From a virus: a stretch of DNA of 24,164 nucleotides. Positions 2,015 through 16,524 of the stretch are shown here, one piece after another. Where the stretch lies: the IMG/VR virus record IMGVR_UViG_3300017917_002337, positions 1-24,164 of that record; one strand, 5' to 3'. Every line of letters starts with the position of its first letter. The stretch's first letter is position 1. The position numbers and the translations under genes were made by a program. Below the pieces are notes generated by a model. It was not told the DNA's origin. It did no database searches and saw nothing but the letters and a program-made list of their open reading frames with translations.

Positions 2015-3067
2015 TTAACTTTTAATATTTAAAACTCCGTTATTAATAAAGTTTTCTCTACTGATATTCCAAACATCAGTCTCAACAGCCCATTTCAAAT
2101 CTCCAATAAGCTGTGCTACACCTGGATACTTACGTCCTTTATGCTCAAATCCTTCATAAGCATCTAACAAATCACCTTCTTTAAGTGTATAAATTAATGG
2201 GTTATAATAGTTTGTGCTATCACAAACAATAAACTTAGGACATTCCACTTTATATTTATACAACTCACTATTTTCATTTACTGTTAAACTTATAGCTGCA
2301 CAATAATATAAATATGCCTGAATATAAGCTCTTCTGTAAAGATAATACTCTTCATAGAAATTCTCTACATTCCATGTACATTTTAAATCATACACCTGTA
2401 TTGCTCGCTGTTTGTGATCAACGATCACCTTATCCATCATACTCTTAAATAAATGCCCATCTACAGAATATCCTTCTATTTGGAACTGATTTTTAACATC
2501 ATATCGAGCACTGCTTACAAGATTAATCACATCACTTGTAACAAAGTTTGTCTTAAGTTCTGTCACAATCTTTTCAGCATTTGTAACATCATCAGATGTT
2601 ACCACGATGAGACCTTTACTTCTCACCTTTCTGAGCTCTTCGTAATAAATCTCTGCATCCGATCCCTGAAACTTACTTATTACAGCATCATATTTAATCT
2701 TAAATCCAGAATCATTATATGCATCTAGAGATATGTCTGCAAAAGATCTATTAACATTCCCAAACTCATCTGTTGCTGCTGCTGTATGTTTATATAACGC
2801 TTCTACAAATGCAAGCATCAGACCAGTTGGGGCAGATAGACAAACTGACATATGAAATCTCTCATCAAACAATTCTGGTTCTAATAGAAGAGTTTCTACC
2901 ACTCTACCTATAATAGAGGCTTTTGTATCCTCTTCTTCCAATTTTTCACCTAATATGTACTTCTTGTAATAGGCTTTTCTATTTGTAGAAAACTCCTTTA
3001 GACTAGAAGAGCTATCCATTTGAACAGCTCTATACTCTTTTTCTGTTTTAACTTTTCCTGCTATCAT
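2015..3067 (-). CDS. PD-(D/E)XK nuclease (RecE/Cas4-like phage exonuclease family)
   Basis: 350 residues. Near residues 54-71, GRVVETLLLEPELFDERF matches the N-terminal helix motif of phage PD-(D/E)XK exonucleases, which usually contributes an early acidic or His ligand (here Glu58). Asp212 (SMMDKVIVD), then Asp227-Leu-Lys229 (VYDLKC), supply the core D...(D/E)xK motif. Tyr-rich YIQAYLYY (248-255) supplies the downstream Gln. The likely activity is metal-dependent processing of DNA ends for recombination or host DNA breakdown. The Sak4-like ATPase and SSB in this window would suit a strand-annealing pathway, which is inference. Start at 3067 overlaps the upstream gene by 4 bp. Confidence 0.8.
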   Translation of the reverse strand: MIAGKVKTEKEYRAVQMDSSSSLKEFSTNRKAYYKKYILGEKLEEEDTKASIIGRVVETLLLEPELFDERFHMSVCLSAPTGLMLAFVEALYKHTAAATDEFGNVNRSFADISLDAYNDSGFKIKYDAVISKFQGSDAEIYYEELRKVRSKGLIVVTSDDVTNAEKIVTELKTNFVTSDVINLVSSARYDVKNQFQIEGYSVDGHLFKSMMDKVIVDHKQRAIQVYDLKCTWNVENFYEEYYLYRRAYIQAYLYYCAAISLTVNENSELYKYKVECPKFIVCDSTNYYNPLIYTLKEGDLLDAYEGFEHKGRKYPGVAQLIGDLKWAVETDVWNISRENFINNGVLNIKS

Positions 3068-5568: not shown

Positions 5569-7893
5569 TTACGCTAATTCTTCTACTTCTTCTTCTGTAA
5601 TTGGTTGATTGACAACCTCTTCGTTTAATTTAATATTATAGTTTTTCCAATCTATCCTTTGTTTGTAGTATTTGAATAAATCAGCTATTGCTTTTATAAC
5701 AGGAATGTCCCTGTCATGTCTGTAACTGTGTAAAGTGTCACACAATGGCTGTAAGAACGCAAGCTTTTCTAAAAGAGCCTTCACTTGCTTGTAAATAGGA
5801 TAGATTTCTTGATCAAAAGCATTATTCATTTGTGCAACTTCTAACATTGCTTCGTATATAGTGACATTAGCGTATTCACAATTGCTTTTTCTATATTTAT
5901 CAAGAGTGTCTAATTTATTATATAAATCTTCAGAAATAGAACGTAATTGTTGTCTCTTGTTAAATACGTCTTTGTTTTGGTCAAACAATTTCTCTATTAA
6001 ATATGCGGTTACCAGTCTTTTAAACGGTTTGTTTTCTCCTTTCATAAATTCATCGAAGGTTATCCAGTTGTGAAAATTAACTTTTGCCATGTTCCCAAGC
6101 TCTCTTGGAGAGAATTGAACAAATTTGATTTCAGATTTACATCTATTAAAATCAACAATCTTAAACAATTTGTCCATCAGCTCTACATCTTTCTCTCCAC
6201 TATACACCATTAAAGACTTCTCTCTGTGCATAGTTTCCAACCTGTAAGTGGTACTCACCCACTTACAATTCTTACCATCCACCCATCTCTCCAAATTCAA
6301 GGCTTGCTTGCCAATTATCTCACCCTTAAGTTTCACTTTTCTTGGACCACCGGTTCCTCCAGATTGACCTATAGATATTGCTACCTTTTTCTTGCTATCA
6401 AGCCAATCCTGAGGAATGTCCAATTGATCAATGTTAAGAAAGCTATCAAACAAACTTTTTAATATAGACTGAAACTCCTGAATAGCCTGTCTCCATTTGT
6501 TTTTAGGAACATACTTTAAAGAAAGAATGTTATGATATGTTTTAAAGTCAGTGACTCCAATTCTTCCCAGTTTGAAATCCCTAACCTTTTTAACTATCCT
6601 AATCCTATTTCCATATCCTGTGTTTCTAGCATACAGTTCTTTAAGATACTCTTTCTTCTTTCCAGGAATCTTTTCGCTAAACACAAATATCCTCTCTTTA
6701 AGATGGGTGTCGTTAAGATCTGTATCATAACTTCTCTTACATTCTCTCCATCTACCACTCTCCATTCTATATCTAGTTTCATACTCACCAAACATATAAT
6801 GTTTATTTGCATAGAGCTTTTCTAAATTTAAAACTTCAACCCCTTTCATCTTTGGATTGATAATTGTAACTGTAGCAAAACTCTGAAACACGGAGATATC
6901 TTTCTTAACGCCTTGTAAATCAATATATCTTAAACCACTTGAATAGTAGTCAAATATATCCTTAATGTTTGAAACTTCTTCAACTGTTTCATTATACTTG
7001 GTTACAAAGAAGTTTGCAATTTGAGTAATTTTATTTAAAATCACTTCTTTTGCTTCCTTTGTATATCGAATAGATTCTCTGTTTGGCGTAGGGAACACAC
7101 CATCTGTAAGACCAAGTCTTATTGCTACAGGGAAAGTTATACGATCTATACCAAGTTTCTGAAAGTCAATAGGATAGTAGACATTATCTAGACACAAATG
7201 AAGATTACCATCTGTTGCCAGCTGAGAAAACTGAAACAGTTCATTCCTATATATAACAAAGTTATTGTCAATATTGCTTCCACAATCAAAATAAACACTG
7301 TCGAAATAAGCTAATTGCTCACTAATCTTCTCATAAAACTCACGTCTATCAGAATATTTTACAGGAACAATCACTTTAACACCATTATCTTCTGTTGTGT
7401 GATTTTCATAAAGAAGATCGATTGTGTTTACATCTTCTCCTTCGTACATCATATATTTACGCTCAATCCCATCTTTTCTACATACAAAATAGAAAGAAGA
7501 AGAATAAGCAAGGGGAGCTTTAAAACCCAGTCCCATCATACCTAATTCTGTAGAGCTGTTACGCTTTGTGCTCTTACCATATTTACTAATGATGTTTCTT
7601 ACATCATCAGCATCCAATCCAATACCAAAATCCTCTACAGAGAATTCATAATTATCTTCACTGTTAGGTTTAAAACTAACAACGATAGGTTTGTCAACAC
7701 CAGCTCTTCTGTGACTATCCAGTGCATTTGAGGCACATTCCCGGATAGTAGAGCCTATAGAATCTGAATACAAATTCTTACTTAACATCTGCATCAACAC
7801 TTGTGCAGATTCTAAGTCTAATGACATTCCAATAGAATCTTGTGTTTCACCTTCTTGTTCAATGATTGTGTTTGTCTGTTTCTCTAAGATCAT
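5569..7893 (-). CDS. rIIA: rIIA-like GHKL ATPase
   Basis: 774 residues, close to T4 rIIA (about 725). The N-terminus is a GHKL ATP-binding domain: N-box RECASNALDSH (51-61), G1 motif EDFGIGLD (87-94) and G2 motif LGMMGLGFKAPLAYSSS (117-133). The rest is largely helical with a charged C-terminus and has no second nuclease or transducer motif I can name. With rIIB it forms the classic rIIA-rIIB pair. A hairpin at the 3' end may lower rIIB expression. The start ATG is 2 bp from the stop of the upstream gene. Confidence 0.9.
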   Translation of the reverse strand: MILEKQTNTIIEQEGETQDSIGMSLDLESAQVLMQMLSKNLYSDSIGSTIRECASNALDSHRRAGVDKPIVVSFKPNSEDNYEFSVEDFGIGLDADDVRNIISKYGKSTKRNSSTELGMMGLGFKAPLAYSSSFYFVCRKDGIERKYMMYEGEDVNTIDLLYENHTTEDNGVKVIVPVKYSDRREFYEKISEQLAYFDSVYFDCGSNIDNNFVIYRNELFQFSQLATDGNLHLCLDNVYYPIDFQKLGIDRITFPVAIRLGLTDGVFPTPNRESIRYTKEAKEVILNKITQIANFFVTKYNETVEEVSNIKDIFDYYSSGLRYIDLQGVKKDISVFQSFATVTIINPKMKGVEVLNLEKLYANKHYMFGEYETRYRMESGRWRECKRSYDTDLNDTHLKERIFVFSEKIPGKKKEYLKELYARNTGYGNRIRIVKKVRDFKLGRIGVTDFKTYHNILSLKYVPKNKWRQAIQEFQSILKSLFDSFLNIDQLDIPQDWLDSKKKVAISIGQSGGTGGPRKVKLKGEIIGKQALNLERWVDGKNCKWVSTTYRLETMHREKSLMVYSGEKDVELMDKLFKIVDFNRCKSEIKFVQFSPRELGNMAKVNFHNWITFDEFMKGENKPFKRLVTAYLIEKLFDQNKDVFNKRQQLRSISEDLYNKLDTLDKYRKSNCEYANVTIYEAMLEVAQMNNAFDQEIYPIYKQVKALLEKLAFLQPLCDTLHSYRHDRDIPVIKAIADLFKYYKQRIDWKNYNIKLNEEVVNQPITEEEVEELA

Positions 7894-8204: not shown

Positions 8205-8924
8205 TCATTTTAACCATTCAATTGAAAAATTATTGTTATCTCTTAATATCTTGTTCACCTTTGTGAACGTACCTTCTGTATCCCAATCTGTTTGTTTGTA
8301 TGAGGCAGAGGCTGGATGACTCACTACAAAACTCCATGAGAAGGGTGGTATATACTTTCTGTATACACTAGCATCCTTACCAAGAAACACATAAGGAACA
8401 CCGGATGTAGCTAAAACATCTTCAAGGAGGTATTTTGTAAACGGTTCCCACAACTTGATGTGTGATCCTGCTTTGTTCATTTCTGTTGTAAGAGCAGCGT
8501 TTACCATCAACACTCCTTGTTTGGCCAGATATGAAACATCTGGATTCTTAGTGTAATGTAAGTTGAGTCCATTATATACATCGTCTTCTACACCCTCATA
8601 GAACTTCTCTAGAGATGGTTGTAATTTGCCTGTAACAGAACAGCCCATAAGTAAACCGTCTGCAACAGGAAGTCCTTCATAAAATGTGTGATAGGGGCAC
8701 ATTCCCATCATCACCACTTTTAAGTCATCTAAGGGAGTTTCTGCAAAACATCTATAAACATTAGGAGAAAGAGGGGCAATTTTTTTTCCACGTGCAGACT
8801 CTTTCTTTAAAAATTCATATATTGGATCAAAACCTCCTGAATCAAAAAAAGGTTTAAACCTTGAAGCCCAAGTACCAAATAATACTTCAAACTTTTTCCA
8901 ACTTAACTTTGTTTGTATTTCCAT
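8205..8924 (-). CDS. Uracil-DNA glycosylase family 1-like protein with altered catalytic loop
   Basis: 239 residues, the usual length for family 1 (Ung). The fold landmarks are in order: the water-activating loop is GMCPYHTF (74-81) where Ung has GQDPYHG; the uracil-binding strand is VLMVNAALT (138-146, Asn142 matching E. coli Asn123); the DNA-intercalation loop is SHPASAS (202-208, His203 matching His187). The catalytic Asp (E. coli Asp64) is replaced by Cys76 and the adjacent Gln by Met. Family membership is strong; normal uracil excision is doubtful. It may bind uracil or DNA without cleaving, or use a different chemistry. Its first 22 bp overlap the end of the GIY-YIG gene. Confidence 0.85.
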   Translation of the reverse strand: MEIQTKLSWKKFEVLFGTWASRFKPFFDSGGFDPIYEFLKKESARGKKIAPLSPNVYRCFAETPLDDLKVVMMGMCPYHTFYEGLPVADGLLMGCSVTGKLQPSLEKFYEGVEDDVYNGLNLHYTKNPDVSYLAKQGVLMVNAALTTEMNKAGSHIKLWEPFTKYLLEDVLATSGVPYVFLGKDASVYRKYIPPFSWSFVVSHPASASYKQTDWDTEGTFTKVNKILRDNNNFSIEWLK

Positions 8925-9736
8925 ATAAATCCTTTGTGAGTTTTTCTTAATCCATTACACACACTTGTAATATTTGATTGATTGTAACCAAGTTCATCTC
9001 TAATTTGACTTGCACCCAACCACTCTTTTATAAAATTTCCATGTAAATCGTACTGAAAAACTGTTTTATATCTAGAAAGTTTCATGTTTTCTACATGTTC
9101 TTTTGACTTTTTTTTGCCTTTAGAAGCAATTGACATATTTTTTTTAGTTTCTTCAGTGTGCCAAGGTTTATTGTTCTTTCTTCTTGAATCTATTTGTTTT
9201 TTAACTGATTCTTTGTTTCTAAATTTTCCTTTATTTATTAAAGATAATTTTAACTTTGTTTCTTTAGAATGAGTTTTTCCTTTATTAGAATCAGATATTT
9301 TCTTACGACTTTCTTCAGAATGAAATTTTCCTCTCATTCCTTTTCCAGAATCTCTATTTTTAAATTTTTCAGAATTTTTTAAAGATTGACTTATTTTTTG
9401 TTTATGTTCTTCTGTAAATTTATTTTTTAAATTATTTCCTGTAGGTCGTAAATTAAAACCCTTTTCTGGATTATGAGTATCATGTAGCAAACAGTAATAG
9501 TTTTCTTTAACTTTACATTCATTAAATTCACAATATTCTAATACACTAAAAGAAAAATTATCATATCCATACTTATTCCATGCATTTTGCAAGTAAGGAT
9601 TTTCATGACGATTTCCTTTTAAGTTTTGAATATGATAATTTATTCTTTTTCTAATATTTCCTGTTTCTCCAATTATAGATTTATTTGTAGGAACACAAGT
9701 TATCATATATATTCCTGGTTTGTTTTCCAATATCAT
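8903..9736 (-). CDS. GIY-YIG homing endonuclease with NUMOD3 and NUMOD1-type DNA-binding regions
   Basis: 277 residues. The nuclease domain (about 7-98) has GIY at 8-10, IIG in place of YIG at 21-23, Arg29 and catalytic Glu78, followed by GFNLRPTG. Residues about 105-222 are repeated NUMOD3-like helices of the form EE..KKIS.SNKGK. The C-terminus, FQYDLHGNFIKEWLGASQI followed by NITSVCNG and GFIWKY, is a NUMOD1/IENR1-type helix-turn-helix. It is clearly more A/T-rich than neighbouring genes, as expected for a mobile gene. It carries its own consensus promoter at 9756-9787 and its last 22 bp overlap the UDG-like start. Confidence 0.92.
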   Translation of the reverse strand: MILENKPGIYMITCVPTNKSIIGETGNIRKRINYHIQNLKGNRHENPYLQNAWNKYGYDNFSFSVLEYCEFNECKVKENYYCLLHDTHNPEKGFNLRPTGNNLKNKFTEEHKQKISQSLKNSEKFKNRDSGKGMRGKFHSEESRKKISDSNKGKTHSKETKLKLSLINKGKFRNKESVKKQIDSRRKNNKPWHTEETKKNMSIASKGKKKSKEHVENMKLSRYKTVFQYDLHGNFIKEWLGASQIRDELGYNQSNITSVCNGLRKTHKGFIWKYKQS

Positions 9737-9808: not shown

Positions 9809-10594
9809 TTAAAACATTGATAATTGACTATATCCTGAAACTTCCTCTACAGGAACTTCTATTGCTTCAATTGGTTGAATTGCTGAAGGAACCAGCTCTC
9901 CCAATTGATTAACAAAAAAGTTGTGAGCTTTGATGTGATTGTCCATCCAAAGAGATGGGTGAGATTGTCTCATAGAGAATGTTGTGAACTGATAAAGCTC
10001 CCACAAGCTATCTTTAGCACCGTAATCATATGTAGGCTTCTTTAATTCTCTCTCAATAATATTCAGCTGTGTACTCTGGATGATTTGATCTTCGATCATC
10101 ATTCTACCAATAAGCTCAGCCTGCACTCTCTTACTCACCTCAATTTGTTTCGTCTGCTCACGAATATCTTGCATTAATTTGAAAGATTCTCCTGCACGCT
10201 TGATATATTCTGTAATAGCATTAGGAGTGAAAGTTTGCACTGCTCCTACATGTTTCCTTTTAAATGCGCCATAATCACCTGATACACAACCATTCTGACA
10301 AATCATAATTCTTACTCCCAAGGCAAACTTGAGGGTGAGGGATTTGTCATAGCTATTCTGCCAGCCCACTTCTAATTGCATCTCACTATCCATAACATTG
10401 CTAATTGTAAATCTACCATTAGCAATAGCGCCACCTTTAGCAGCTGAATATAGTTCTTTATCTAATTTAAACCCGGCTTTCTCAATACCATTGAGAGTTA
10501 GGTCTATAAGTTGACCGTGAGATACAGGTTTGTAAGTGCGAGTTTGCTCAGGAATAGGAGCATTCAATACGATGTCTTTTGTTACGTTGTACAT
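9809..10594 (-). CDS. DUF932-like phage protein with C-terminal clamp-binding-like motif
   Basis: 261 residues. The central part, FALGVRIMICQNGCVSGD (residues about 90-108), followed by a long helical region and then SLWELYQFTTF and HPSLWMDNHIKAHNFF, resembles the DUF932/phage-plasmid-like family found beside replication genes. Function of that family is not established. The extreme C-terminus is QLSMF (257-261) after a flexible acidic linker; this fits the bacterial sliding-clamp binding consensus QL(S/D)LF well. Recruitment to a DNA polymerase clamp is inference. The leader TTTAAAACCAATTTT directly precedes its ATG and recurs before the gene at 21874-22227. Confidence 0.75.
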   Translation of the reverse strand: MYNVTKDIVLNAPIPEQTRTYKPVSHGQLIDLTLNGIEKAGFKLDKELYSAAKGGAIANGRFTISNVMDSEMQLEVGWQNSYDKSLTLKFALGVRIMICQNGCVSGDYGAFKRKHVGAVQTFTPNAITEYIKRAGESFKLMQDIREQTKQIEVSKRVQAELIGRMMIEDQIIQSTQLNIIERELKKPTYDYGAKDSLWELYQFTTFSMRQSHPSLWMDNHIKAHNFFVNQLGELVPSAIQPIEAIEVPVEEVSGYSQLSMF

Positions 10595-10604
10595 AAAATT
10601 GGTT

Positions 10605-10832
10605 TTAAATGTAATTAATTCGATTCATCTCGTTTTTAAAATGAGCATATACTTCTGGTACATGCTTTTTGTAATAAGGCTGGTTTTCTTTACACCACTT
10701 TTTTAACTCATCTGATGTTCTGAAGGGCTTTTGCCAGCTTTGTCCTGACATTATTACTTCAAAAGATGGTTTTAACTCATCTATAAAATCTTGAGGGGTC
10801 CAACCCTCCCAAACATTTCTGTCTAAACTCAT
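10605..10832 (-). CDS. Small phage protein of unknown function
   Basis: 75 residues, soluble and rich in Trp, Lys and Glu (WEGWTPQDFIDEL, then KPFRTSDELKKWCKENQPYY). Predicted mainly helical. It overlaps the primase gene by 4 bp, so the two are probably translationally coupled. No domain recognised; a primase accessory role is only suggested by position. Confidence 0.75.
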   Translation of the reverse strand: MSLDRNVWEGWTPQDFIDELKPSFEVIMSGQSWQKPFRTSDELKKWCKENQPYYKKHVPEVYAHFKNEMNRINYI

Positions 10833-11827
10833 AATAACTGTTTTTGTTTTAGATAGTCTTCAATGGTTTTCATACCATACGTCTTTGCTAAATCAGCCCA
10901 ATCTTTAATACCCTCTTTAAGATATTTCCTTGGAACATTACAATATCCAAAATCAAAAAGCTTGGTGATTTGCTGAGAGTTTTCTACACCTGTGATATCA
11001 GAATCAAAAGACAGGATCTGTTTATCAGAATTTGCTTTAAGGAATTCTACGTTCTCTGGAGAGAAACATCCCATACTCTCATTCTGAACAGCACAGGAAC
11101 AAGGAAATATCTTCCTCATCACCATATAGTCCTTTTTGCTCTTGTTGATGAACGCAGTGTCACAATTAACAACCCTATCTTTCCCATCCATTGCGGTAAT
11201 AGGAACATTGTTAGGAATCCACTTCATCTTCTTATCTGCAAAAGGCTTATATATCTTCCAGTGTCCGTCATAGAAATAACCAAATCTAAGTTCTGTATCC
11301 TTAAGAGGGAACATGCTCTTGTTAAGATAGAGTTTCTTAATAGAATACACACCACACTCTTTAAGATCGTCGATAGATTGGTGATATCTGGCCCAATATT
11401 CAAGTTCCTCATTAGTAAACTTTCTTGTAACCACCTGAATAAGAGAATATCTCTTACCAAGTTCTTCCGGCTGTTTATATTCAGGAACCACTCTTTTCAC
11501 CTCTTCAACACCTTTTGTAGATATTCCAAGTCCAAAATCTCTATCAATAAGTCTTAATACATCATCTATAGAAGCTAAATTATATAAGAGCTTTACAAAT
11601 GTGAAACAGTTTCCTCTTCTAGATGTATCTCCAAAATCTATAAAATATAGACTTCCATACTTATTACCAATTAGAAATGAAGGATTGCTTTCAGTTCTAA
11701 ATGGAGAGAGTGTCACCTGGTTCATCTTCCAGGGATTGGGCATATACCACTTAAATATGTCATACTCAGATATTTTACTGAGCACTGTTTCTGGTGTTAG
11801 TTGTTCTCTTCTTTTGCCCTTAATCAT
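10829..11827 (-). CDS. DnaG-type primase (Toprim) with degenerate zinc-binding domain
   Basis: 332 residues from ATG 11825-11827. An in-frame ATG at 11848 exists, but it lies inside the hairpin at 11839-11866, so the inner start is chosen. The N-terminal part follows the CHC2 zinc-domain layout (SPFRTESNPSFLI, then LYFIDFGDTSRRGNCFTFVK at 60-79), yet the zinc-binding Cys/His are replaced by Ser, Arg and Asp. The Toprim region has INKSKKDYMVM in the phage KSLKD-like form and ILSFDSDITG with the DxD metal site. It would make primers for the DnaB-type helicase encoded upstream. Confidence 0.85.
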   Translation of the reverse strand: MIKGKRREQLTPETVLSKISEYDIFKWYMPNPWKMNQVTLSPFRTESNPSFLIGNKYGSLYFIDFGDTSRRGNCFTFVKLLYNLASIDDVLRLIDRDFGLGISTKGVEEVKRVVPEYKQPEELGKRYSLIQVVTRKFTNEELEYWARYHQSIDDLKECGVYSIKKLYLNKSMFPLKDTELRFGYFYDGHWKIYKPFADKKMKWIPNNVPITAMDGKDRVVNCDTAFINKSKKDYMVMRKIFPCSCAVQNESMGCFSPENVEFLKANSDKQILSFDSDITGVENSQQITKLFDFGYCNVPRKYLKEGIKDWADLAKTYGMKTIEDYLKQKQLL

Positions 11828-11829
11828 AA

Positions 11830-11866
11830 CAAATAAAAAGCCTCCCACTATTTCTAATGGGAGGCT
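11830..11866 (-). terminator. Intrinsic terminator between the SSB-like gene and primase
   Basis: A 9-bp GC-rich stem (11839-11847 with 11858-11866), 10-base loop, followed on the minus strand by TTTTTATTTG. It lies 16 bp after the SSB-like stop, and would favour SSB over primase expression. Confidence 0.75.
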
Positions 11867-12774: not shown

Positions 12775-13443
12775 TTAATTGTAATACTCATTGACCTTAT
12801 CTACCACCAACTGCAAATTGTTTGGAACTTTCAGGTCTTCAAACATTCCATCAGGGCTCTTTGCAGGGTATTTCTTATATCTATTTGTTACGAAATAATA
12901 ATTAGCCCCTTCTTTTGTGTCTTCAACATGTGTGTAAAGACAAATAGTAAATAAACCTTCTAAAACAATCTGGTTGTCCAGCATCTTTCCAGAGGTTTTC
13001 ATCTTATATCCTACAATCTCTCCACTATCTTCAACAACTTCTGGGTGAGAAAAATAGAAGATTTTCAAATCATCCCTAAGTTTGCGAGCCTCTCTAAACA
13101 AATCCACCATATCTTTAGCCATTACAGTGAACTTTGTATATCCCACCTCATTAGCTTTATCAGCCATACGAAATGCCATCATATAATTGCTATCTTCAAT
13201 AACAATGTTTTTGATGTGAGGAGCTTTCTCAGAAACGGTTTTAATGAGACGTGTAATTTCTACAATCTCATCAACCTCCTTGTAGTTTTTGTTTTCAGAG
13301 TTGTACAGTTTTTCTGCGCCTTTGAAAGGAAGTTCTTTCTTAGCAGTGTTGATGATGTAAGTTTCCTTTGGATCTAAATGCTTGATCGAGGTGGATTTTC
13401 CAGTGCCTGTAGCACCAACAATCCCAATTAATTTACTTGCCAT
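12775..13443 (-). CDS. Sak4-like RecA-fold ATPase (phage recombination)
   Basis: 222 residues. Walker A is GATGTGKST (10-18), Walker B is IVIED (80-84), and FYFSHPEVV provides the sensor-like strand with polar His. Size and motif layout match the Sak4/AAA_24 group of phage ATPases, which assist single-strand annealing together with SSB. The SSB-like gene is immediately downstream, the known genetic association for Sak4. A consensus promoter lies directly upstream (13463-13493), so this gene probably starts a Sak4-SSB transcript. Confidence 0.8.
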   Translation of the reverse strand: MASKLIGIVGATGTGKSTSIKHLDPKETYIINTAKKELPFKGAEKLYNSENKNYKEVDEIVEITRLIKTVSEKAPHIKNIVIEDSNYMMAFRMADKANEVGYTKFTVMAKDMVDLFREARKLRDDLKIFYFSHPEVVEDSGEIVGYKMKTSGKMLDNQIVLEGLFTICLYTHVEDTKEGANYYFVTNRYKKYPAKSPDGMFEDLKVPNNLQLVVDKVNEYYN

Positions 13444-13493: not shown

Positions 13494-13666
13494 ACATCTA
13501 TACGAGTTGTTGAAAAGTTTTCAGGATCTTTTTTATATAATGTGTACAATTCTTCTATCTTATTTAAATTAAAATCTCCTGTAATATATTCACCATCAAC
13601 AAGTAGCTTATACCAAGGTTTGTCATCACCTATAACCTTTGTTTCTTTTATGATTTGTAGTTTCAT
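13472..13666 (-). CDS. Small protein of unknown function (64 aa)
   Basis: A small soluble protein with a beta-rich first half (MKLQIIKETKVIGDDKPWYK, LLVDGEYITGDFN) and a helical end. It overlaps the SF2 helicase stop by 4 bp and its 3' end carries the -33 box of the next promoter. No family recognised. Confidence 0.65.
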   Translation of the reverse strand: MKLQIIKETKVIGDDKPWYKLLVDGEYITGDFNLNKIEELYTLYKKDPENFSTTRIDVLKSEEI

Positions 13667-14736
13667 TTGTATTTAATTTTAGATTGATCTAACATTGATA
13701 AACTTTCCTTGATTTTCTTGAGTTCCGGAGTTTCATTTAAACATAGAATATGTAAATCTGCCACCTTGTTCTTATAATCAAGTTTTATAGCCCTATTGAG
13801 AATCTGTGAGGTTTCTTCTGCATTATATGTGAAGTTCATCAGAATAACAGAGTCTAGCTCTTTATATGTCACACCCACTTTTCCCATAGCAGCCAAAGCT
13901 AAATGATTAGATTCACCAGACTGAAACTTTCTAAATGCATCATCATTAGGAGACTTACTGTGATAGGACGGTATTCCTATTTCATCAGCCACTTTAGATA
14001 GGCCGGTGAACACTACCACTCTTTTATCATTCAGACCTTTAAGAAGCCTTCTTACATATTGCATCTTACCTATTGAGGATAGAGAAAGTCTGTTTCTAGC
14101 TAGTGCTAATTGCATGAAATCTCTTCTCTCATCTTTCATCTTTTCAATCACCCAGGTGTATGCGCCATATCTCTGCTTCTCTGTCTTTAGCTTTCCTTTC
14201 TTATCCTTTGTCTTCTGTACATCATCCAAAGGAACCTTGTGCACTGTAATAGTGTAATCTGCAAGAATACCATCCTCTATGCCCTGTAAAGTGGTGTATT
14301 TAGCTATTTCTTTCAGTCCCCAATCCATTCTTGTCACCTCACTCACTGTTCCTGAAAGAGCTAGTGTTCTAACAGAGTTTTTCATTATTTCAAAACATGA
14401 TTCGCGCTCATTCTCAGAGGCTGAATGAAACTCATCAATAATGAAGAAATTATACCCAATGTTTAAATGCTTCTTAAGAGAACTGAAGTTAACATGTGTT
14501 ATATTAGGATTGTCATATCCCCACATATCACATTCGCTAATCCAGGTTTCTCTAAGCTTATTATCCGGATAGGCTATTAACACCTCTCCATTTTTACACA
14601 GCTTCTTCAGAACCTCAATAACACAACGAGTTTTCCCAAATCTCATAGCAAGGTCCAAATAACCCTCATCATTAGTCTTATAGAATTCAATGGTCTTTTT
14701 AACCATCTGTTTTTGTAACTCATCTTGCTTTGTCAT
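13663..14736 (-). CDS. SF2 DNA helicase
   Basis: 357 residues. Helicase motifs in order: MRFGKT (31-36, motif I), DEFH (101-104, motif II), ALSGT (126-130, motif III), RVVVFTG in the second RecA domain (motif IV), and QILNRAIKLD (motif VI, lacking the usual second Arg). A single ATP-driven motor with two RecA domains and no accessory domain. It would act in recombination, replication restart or branch migration, like T4 UvsW; the exact role is inferred. It overlaps both neighbouring genes by 4 bp. Confidence 0.88.
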   Translation of the reverse strand: MTKQDELQKQMVKKTIEFYKTNDEGYLDLAMRFGKTRCVIEVLKKLCKNGEVLIAYPDNKLRETWISECDMWGYDNPNITHVNFSSLKKHLNIGYNFFIIDEFHSASENERESCFEIMKNSVRTLALSGTVSEVTRMDWGLKEIAKYTTLQGIEDGILADYTITVHKVPLDDVQKTKDKKGKLKTEKQRYGAYTWVIEKMKDERRDFMQLALARNRLSLSSIGKMQYVRRLLKGLNDKRVVVFTGLSKVADEIGIPSYHSKSPNDDAFRKFQSGESNHLALAAMGKVGVTYKELDSVILMNFTYNAEETSQILNRAIKLDYKNKVADLHILCLNETPELKKIKESLSMLDQSKIKYK

Positions 14737-15465: not shown

Positions 15466-16524
15466 TTAATTTATAAAAAACGATTTGTTTACAACAGCCT
15501 GATAATCAGCATCCGTCATATTTTTCTTCTTAGGTAGCTCTTTGAACATACCAATCTGGCCAAGAAAACCTAGTCCAATTCTAACATCATCCTCACCATA
15601 AGAATTCTTAATTAGTCTAAGGCTTCTGAAATACTTTGCACCATACTCATCTTTTAGTTTCATTAAGTCATATCCAGAAGGATCAGCCACTTTATACCTC
15701 ATAGGATCAAATAAGGCTAATACAACATCAGCATCATTCTGTGTAGAAGAACTGTCTGCAAAATCCTCTAATTGAGGCTCTACATCACCGTTCTTTATCC
15801 TCATAGGATTGCTAATATCACGATTGAACTGACTAACCACCACTGGCGTATATCCATAGAAATCTCTGGCATACCTGAGCTCATCACTCATCTTGTCAAT
15901 AGACTGTTTCTTTGTAGGTAGGTCCTTTGTAAGCTTCAATAAACCAATGTGATCAATAATGACAATTGTCACTTCATGCTCGTTATTTGGTATATAGCGC
16001 CTATTATACTCATCAATCTGCTCAATGCGCCCATTTTGCACAGCGTGCTCCTTTAATTCTTTAGCTATACCTACAGGATTCTCTGCACCATCAATGATTG
16101 TAATTACATCTTCCATAGCCTGGATGTAATCTTCGTACATTAGAAAAAGATCGTGCTCATCCTTAGTCATCTTATCTGTCCAGCCCAACATCTTAGAAAC
16201 TGGAACAATTATCCCCTGATCTATAAAGATCTTCCTACTCACCCATTTTGCCAATTTGTAGGTTTTAGAACGCTCCATTGAACGATATATAATGCGTAAT
16301 TTGATCTTTGGGTCTTTCTGACTGATATACCAGTCAAAAGGGTTCAAGACAAACGCATCATCAATGAAACTTGTTTTACCAGATCCTGTAAGTCCACCTA
16401 CAAGGAAATACATAGATTTTCTGATTCCTATATACCGGTTTAGTCTGTTAAAGCCCATGGGAATACCACCGTTATTACCAGCTAAACCATTCTCAACCGC
16501 TTGTTTCAATACATCAAAGCTCAT
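15466..16524 (-). CDS. dnaB: DnaB-type replicative helicase (RecA domain only)
   Basis: 352 residues, about 100 shorter than bacterial DnaB because the N-terminal primase-interacting domain is absent. Walker A is GLTGSGKT (44-51), SMER (82-85) is the DnaB-type motif H1a, Walker B is VIVIIDH (186-192), and VVVSQFNRDIS (228-238) is motif H3 with its Gln and Arg. The hexamer would unwind phage DNA at forks. It follows a palindrome-rich non-coding region with a consensus promoter, so it heads the replication transcript. A loader is not obvious; the protein at 20950-21588 is a weak candidate. Confidence 0.9.
   Translation of the reverse strand: MSFDVLKQAVENGLAGNNGGIPMGFNRLNRYIGIRKSMYFLVGGLTGSGKTSFIDDAFVLNPFDWYISQKDPKIKLRIIYRSMERSKTYKLAKWVSRKIFIDQGIIVPVSKMLGWTDKMTKDEHDLFLMYEDYIQAMEDVITIIDGAENPVGIAKELKEHAVQNGRIEQIDEYNRRYIPNNEHEVTIVIIDHIGLLKLTKDLPTKKQSIDKMSDELRYARDFYGYTPVVVSQFNRDISNPMRIKNGDVEPQLEDFADSSSTQNDADVVLALFDPMRYKVADPSGYDLMKLKDEYGAKYFRSLRLIKNSYGEDDVRIGLGFLGQIGMFKELPKKKNMTDADYQAVVNKSFFIN

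Follow-up and report, generated by a model that had tools for sequence, protein, structure and literature searches.

Background

The aspartate of motif 1 is the textbook catalytic residue of family 1 uracil-DNA glycosylases (UDGs; Ung/UNG). In E. coli UDG, six active-site residues are distinguished (D64, Y66, F77, N123, H187, and L191; PMC1936997), and a UDG with the L191A exchange flips bases less efficiently (PMC3989344). Here and below, E. coli residue numbers are taken from PMC5387724, PMC1936997, and PMC3989344 together with our alignments. Outside family 1, members of UDG families 4, 5, and 6 are without the motif 1 Asp yet are glycosylases, so that loss of this residue alone is no proof of inactivity (PMC5387724). 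In family 4 UDGa, Gly or Ala occupies the Asp site, a His is critical, and an Asn of motif 3 positions the water; Tth UDGa shows strong coupling between the QD and EG doublets (PMC5387724). UDGX cross-links to the abasic site through His109, and motif 1 of family 4 and UDGX reads GEGP or GEQP (PMC10776899).

Among viruses, vaccinia D4 brings a UDG fold into the polymerase holoenzyme via A20, independently of glycosylase activity and catalytic residues, and its motifs comprise an altered Leu loop (HPAARDR) and the motif 1 sequence GIDPYP (PMC1936997). For crAss-like phages, PMC7886860 counts UDG among the replication genes, with the active site absent from the available part of its text, and our search of the open-licence PMC literature returned no paper on the active site of a crAssphage UDG and none on a UDG with GMCPYH.

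Here, we analyzed a UDG-like gene in a stretch of 24,164 nucleotides (hereafter the window), which corresponds to positions 1 to 24,164 of the IMG/VR virus record IMGVR_UViG_3300017917_002337, and compared its product with relatives from viral sequence collections, with solved UDG structures, and with the better-described systems above.

Results

Family and fold of the window protein

The features of the window are collected in Table 1. The NCBIfam ung models match the UDG-like protein with E-values of 3e-32 to 5e-21, none reaching the curated cut-offs; for the TIGR00628 equivalog, the score is 88.3 bits vs. a cut-off of 185.75, which is reached in 0/17 related records. The Pfam UDG match also stays under its cut-off (E 6e-4), and the PHROG match is to phrog_12143 (E 4e-31), a family whose function label reads "unknown." An AlphaFold2 model made from an alignment of 50 sequences (pLDDT 90.1, pTM 0.89) has as its best VIA-align matches the human UNG structures 9lnp (218 residues, rmsd 2.3) and 2ssp (217 residues, rmsd 2.2), at Z 26.1 each, and in Foldseek (E 1.7e-13), the family 1 UDG fold spans the full domain. 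Both the PDB and the viral fold searches are headed by ordinary UDGs of family 1 and by viral UDGs. In the profile alignment, solved family 1 UDGs align along most of the protein, with Cys76 falling on the Asp of GQDPYH. This alignment and the fold match bear out what a sequence-only reading of this DNA had proposed, namely a UDG fold with the catalytic Asp replaced by Cys, and the residues that it had named (GMCPYH at 74-79, Asn142, and His203) are all exact in the 239-aa translation. Judged by sequence and predicted fold, the protein is best filed as an Asp-less homolog within the family 1 UDG fold rather than as a proven UDG.

Table 1. Coordinates of the UDG-like gene, its active-site features, and its replication-module neighbors in the window
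Feature	Positions	Strand	Evidence
Asp-less family 1 UDG-like protein, 239 aa	8205..8924	-	ORF, translation, NCBIfam/Pfam/PHROG profiles, AF2 model
Motif 1 GMCPYH (residues 74-79) instead of GQDPYH	8688..8705	-	Alignment to PDB UDGs
Met93 at site of uracil-stacking Phe (E. coli F77)	8646..8648	-	Alignment
Asn142, uracil-reading Asn (E. coli N123)	8499..8501	-	Alignment
HPASASY (residues 203-209), altered Leu-intercalation loop, His kept, Leu to Ala207	8298..8318	-	Alignment
DUF932 protein, usual upstream neighbor	9809..10594	-	Pfam PF06067 E 2e-7
DNA primase	10829..11848	-	phrog_12622 E 1e-34
Sak4-like ATPase	12775..13443	-	phrog_2872 E 1e-55
DNA helicase	13663..14736	-	phrog_16, Pfam ResIII/Helicase_C
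DnaB-like replicative helicase	15466..16524	-	Pfam DnaB_C E 4e-17
rIIA-like HATPase protein, downstream	5569..7893	-	phrog_612 E 2e-56, Pfam HATPase_c_3
PD-(D/E)XK-type exonuclease of replication module	2015..3067	-	phrog_412 (exonuclease VIII) E 2e-14

Gene neighborhood

The UDG-like gene lies in a replication module that also includes a rIIB-like protein, and it occupies the slot of the crAss001 UDG gp74, between the primase and the PD-(D/E)XK exonuclease. In the relative G012 (114,745 bases), a DUF932 homolog is found immediately upstream of the UDG-like gene, and the homolog of the window exonuclease matches both crAss001 gp70 and phi14:2 gp57. Compared with crAss001, G012 has matching RNAP (E 2.5e-33), portal (E 3.9e-36), and TerL (E 4.4e-18) proteins, and it also encodes ribonucleotide reductase, RecA, PhoH, and dUTPase. 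By its replication neighbors and by the structural and RNAP genes of G012, the window gene is a Crassvirales phage gene; the window itself is without structural genes.

Several further features of these neighborhoods were observed. A GIY-YIG/NUMOD3 homing endonuclease gene (window 8903-9736) sits between the DUF932 and UDG-like genes and overlaps the start of the latter, and relatives of it are found immediately upstream of the UDG-like gene in loci L012 (2949-3743) and L047 (1265-2059); shorter fragments occur in L003. Residues 7-36 of the window protein (window 8817-8906) depart from the clade stretch HESWH..PFIES..CD, which is otherwise near-invariant, in a protein that is 85% identical overall to that of L001; this divergent segment may be the trace of a homing endonuclease insertion. 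Two glycosyltransferase genes stand side by side in G012 (L181, 15984-17665), possibly for capsule or DNA decoration. In crAss001 and its relatives, ThiF/E1-like and metalloprotease-domain genes precede the UDG (L078, 2702-5100), and none was seen in the window module.

Census of the Asp-less form

Pooling all loci yielded 153 unique UDG-like sequences, 19 with Asp at the motif 1 site and 134 with another residue (127 Cys, 3 Ala, 3 Ser, and 1 Glu). A first scan of IMG/VR, biased in that its patterns took in motif 1 (KVVMMGMC), gave 74 loci, 73 of them without Asp, and one further scan in the locus collection also carried a motif 1 pattern. The outcome agrees with that of a second scan whose patterns were placed outside motif 1, where the best 80 of 574 relatives comprised 75 Cys, 4 Ala, 1 Ser, and 0 Asp. 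The sequence-only reading had suggested asking whether close homologs keep the Cys, which they do (127/134 non-Asp sequences), and had allowed for the opposite case of relatives with Asp around a single decayed copy, which does not apply since 134 of the 153 unique sequences are non-Asp.

The GMCPYHT codon pattern occurs in at least 119 stretches of viral contigs, and all 80 of the matches listed fall within a UDG-like ORF; as a control, 84,980 bacterial and archaeal species genomes held nine such stretches, none in a UDG-like ORF. A protein search of bacterial genome contigs found none that encodes a clade relative, and the phage record collection contained no match to the window protein above 60% identity (99 records). 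In the collections searched, the Cys form looks phage-specific.

Active-site residues and linked changes

Three of the six classical active-site residues (Tyr, Asn, and His) are left in the window protein. Across the 134 non-Asp sequences, motif 1 Tyr78 is retained in all, the uracil-reading Asn142 in 133 (with one gap; 19/19 in the Asp-bearing sequences), and motif-2 His203 in 132. Cys76, encoded by TGC (8699-8697, minus strand), comes with linked changes that are an addition to the earlier observation: the Gln preceding the motif 1 Asp (Q63) is Met75 in 129/134 non-Asp sequences, the stacking Phe is Met93 in 130/134, and the intercalating Leu is Ala207 in 131/134. Asp-bearing relatives retain Q, D, and F in 19/19, and most of them have already lost the Leu, with Tyr or Phe there in 15/19.

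Cys occupies the site of the water-activating residue in 127/134 sequences, and a cross-linking UDG is known (PMC10776899), both of which would suit a Cys nucleophile that links the protein covalently to DNA, a sulfur version of UDGX. We rate such a Cys-based mechanism as very improbable because Ala (L042, L045, and L046) or Ser (L061 and L160) stands in for Cys in five unique clade members, and these retain Met93, Asn, His, and Tyr; the UDGX nucleophile, moreover, sits at another position, in motif 3 (PMC10776899). With Ala (3) and Ser (2) in the clade and Ser (1) and Glu (1) in independent lineages, a special role of the Cys itself is weakened, and the exchange of Asp for Cys, Ala, or Ser most plausibly means an acid group removed rather than a nucleophile gained. 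Of what had been proposed from the sequence, the family 1 fold, the conserved lack of Asp, and the setting in a replication module stand, and lost activity, uracil binding, or a different chemistry are possibilities.

The residues that remain bear on the main rival to the reading of this protein as a DNA- and base-binding replication accessory (see Discussion), namely a retuned, histidine-driven glycosylase. Here, His203 would stabilize the leaving group and the water would be positioned by means other than Asp, as proposed for family 4 UDGa. Met75, Cys76, and Met93 would reline the pocket, which may take uracil or an altered base as its substrate. Asn142, Tyr78, and His203 are almost invariant, and the joint changes of Q63 to M75 and F77 to M93 resemble repacking more than decay. 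Family 4, where a critical His and a water-positioning motif-3 Asn go with Gly or Ala in place of Asp, provides a precedent (PMC5387724), and the motif-3 Asn (N150) is present in 118/134 non-Asp sequences; however, it is also common in Asp-bearing relatives (13/19) and is therefore not a compensating change. In addition, the MC doublet fits neither of the coupled doublets of Tth UDGa, QD or EG (PMC5387724), the protein has also lost its wedge Leu and stacking Phe, and Pfam identified no base-modification pathway among 10 window and 10 G012 proteins. We regard a retuned glycosylase as possible and well short of probable.

Independent losses of Asp

In a quick maximum-likelihood tree of 71 of the 153 unique sequences (representatives at 80% identity and some added by choice), built with the motif 1 columns excluded, the Cys clade forms a single branch (SH-aLRT 99), from which phi14:2 (Glu) and L282 (Ser) are separate; L080, L074, L286, and L077 are on long branches. 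By parsimony on this quick 71-sequence tree, Asp was lost at least three times, and the site changed state six times. In each loss, the Gln changes alongside the Asp (to MC, KE, and LS), and the paired change seen here echoes the doublet coupling described for the UDG superfamily (PMC5387724). The Asp-bearing L286 has HPASAAY, Cys95, Gln102, Tyr209, and Trp214 in common with the Cys clade and may represent the state before Asp loss, with a placement in the tree that its long branch makes unsure.

Two of these lineages deserve separate description. L282 (3001-3654) encodes a crAss001-type UDG with GLSPYP, 49% identical to the crAss001 UDG, in which Asp loss is apparently independent. The phi14:2 UDG (L077, 11986-12696), which as a query against viral contigs had its own genome as sole match, adjoins ATP-grasp, glutamine-amidotransferase-type, and gamma-glutamyl cyclotransferase genes, which may together form a modification cluster.

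Selection and conservation

The median dN/dS is 0.115 (102 pairs, 80 to 98.5% identity), with values of ~0.7 at very low dS for L033 paired with L039 and L040 among the 40 of 102 pairs listed. Median identity to the window is 66% for the UDG-like protein (72 loci), close to that of the primase (68%, 66 loci) and between those of rIIA (51%, 55 loci) and Sak4 (75%, 55 loci). Sites were compared between 131 of the 134 non-Asp and 17 of the 19 Asp sequences, leaving out L080 and L074 from the Asp group as well as phi14:2, L282, and rows under 190 residues. Across the 131 clade sequences, 70 sites reach at least 97% identity; Y78, N142, S154, H155, P103, G182, H203, and P204 are among those that the Asp group conserves too. 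The UDG-like frame is open in 279/279 loci searched (duplicates included).

Asp, Phe, and Leu are lost together and the scores lie under the curated UDG cut-offs, as might be expected of decay or an annotation artefact in a gene that is losing function. The dN/dS, the conserved sites, and the open frames all run counter to this, which leaves it hardly credible; for the clade, decay was rejected on the grounds of purifying selection and conserved sites. From these comparisons, we take the UDG-like gene to be a working gene under strong purifying selection.

Other UDGs, dUTPase, and polymerases in related phages

The ung model TIGR00628 has one match per record in 17/17 related records, and PF03167 has one match in 9/17, each within the gene of the ung match and none elsewhere; with these two models, no second, active UDG was found in the 17 records. 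A dUTPase is encoded in 13/17, which makes a uracil-substituted genome unlikely and disfavors it as the cause of the Asp loss. The other four, G013 to G016, gave no dUTPase match. ThyX was present in 2/17 and ThyA in 0/17 related records, counts that are uninformative because hosts can supply thymidylate.

The dUTPase also bears on a protein that would shield or act as a decoy, binding uracil or abasic sites uncut and keeping off host Ung or a base-sensing defense glycosylase. Many hosts are expected to have Ung, the base-reading residues are retained with the hydrolytic Asp lost, and strong conservation is compatible with such a role. Against it, the uracil load should be low given dUTPase in 13/17 records, and a protein without the Leu wedge should capture flipped bases less well (L191A, PMC3989344). 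We hold a shield or decoy to be improbable.

No DNA polymerase of family A, B, or C was found above the Pfam cut-off in the 19 phage records G001-G019 (about 104-118 kb). A single family B match under the cut-off lies in a 672-codon frame of G018.

Discussion

Proposed role in replication

The replacement of the catalytic Asp suggests that this protein may read or hold DNA during replication rather than quickly excising uracil. The fold persists together with three active-site residues, the Asn that reads uracil, the Tyr that excludes thymine, and the His of motif 2. The residues lost are the Asp that activates water, the Phe that stacks on uracil, and the Leu that intercalates; loss of this Leu alone would lower and not abolish base flipping (PMC3989344). 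By analogy with the catalysis-independent role of vaccinia D4, we favor a replication accessory that binds DNA and bases and is at most a weak glycosylase, a reading to which we give close to an even chance. In such a protein, the UDG groove would bind DNA at or near the replication fork, the pocket could still sample a base, and the glycosidic bond would be hydrolyzed slowly or not at all, so that its main role would be that of a DNA-scanning, tethering replication accessory.

Several points count against this replication-accessory reading. The near-invariance of Asn, His, and Tyr indicates a pocket that is not degenerating and fits continued catalytic use; UDG families 4, 5, and 6 are glycosylases in spite of their missing Asp (PMC5387724); there is no polymerase above the cut-off in the 19 records and hence no identified tethering partner; and vaccinia D4 itself keeps both Asp and Phe. 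A broader version, in which the UDG of crAss-like phages was repeatedly turned into a non-cutting, DNA-scanning replication factor, a counterpart of poxvirus D4 that has moved beyond it by shedding the catalytic Asp, the Phe, and the Leu and that keeps only the base-reading side of the pocket, appears possible to us and less than likely.

A large phage clade under strong selection and two separate crAss-like losses imply a protein worth keeping without Asp. Whether a UDG fold serves these phages in replication purely through binding, as in poxviruses, or whether family 1 can sustain catalysis by another route thereby becomes directly testable. UDG labels on crAss-like genes, in turn, should not be taken as proof of uracil repair.

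Comparison with known systems

With family 1 UDGs, the window protein shares the whole-length fold, the PYH of motif 1, the Asn, the motif-2 His, and the Pro-rich and Gly loops; it differs from them in having MC for QD (with A or S in some relatives), Met for Phe, Ala for Leu, and a score under the TIGR00628 cut-off. UDG families 4 and 5 and UDGX resemble it in that they have no Asp at the motif 1 site and that His and Asn remain important in them (PMC5387724, PMC10776899). The GEGP/GEQP motif of family 4 UDGa and UDGX is, however, absent from it, and by sequence and fold, it groups with family 1.

Closer at hand, the Steigviridae UDGs (crAss001 gp74 type) occupy the same replication-module slot, are ~33% identical to the window protein, and have the Leu replaced (by Tyr or Phe) in most cases, but they keep GQDPYP and the Phe in seven of the eight records examined. 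The eighth is Cellulophaga phage phi14:2, whose gp53 is likewise a crAss-like protein in the UDG slot without Asp, yet with GKEPYR, an Asp at the site of the motif-2 His, and a separate lineage in the tree. Vaccinia D4 has in common with the window protein a UDG fold in a viral replication module, an altered Leu wedge, and an altered motif 1, and differs from it in that D4 keeps Asp68 and Phe79 and excises uracil (PMC1936997).
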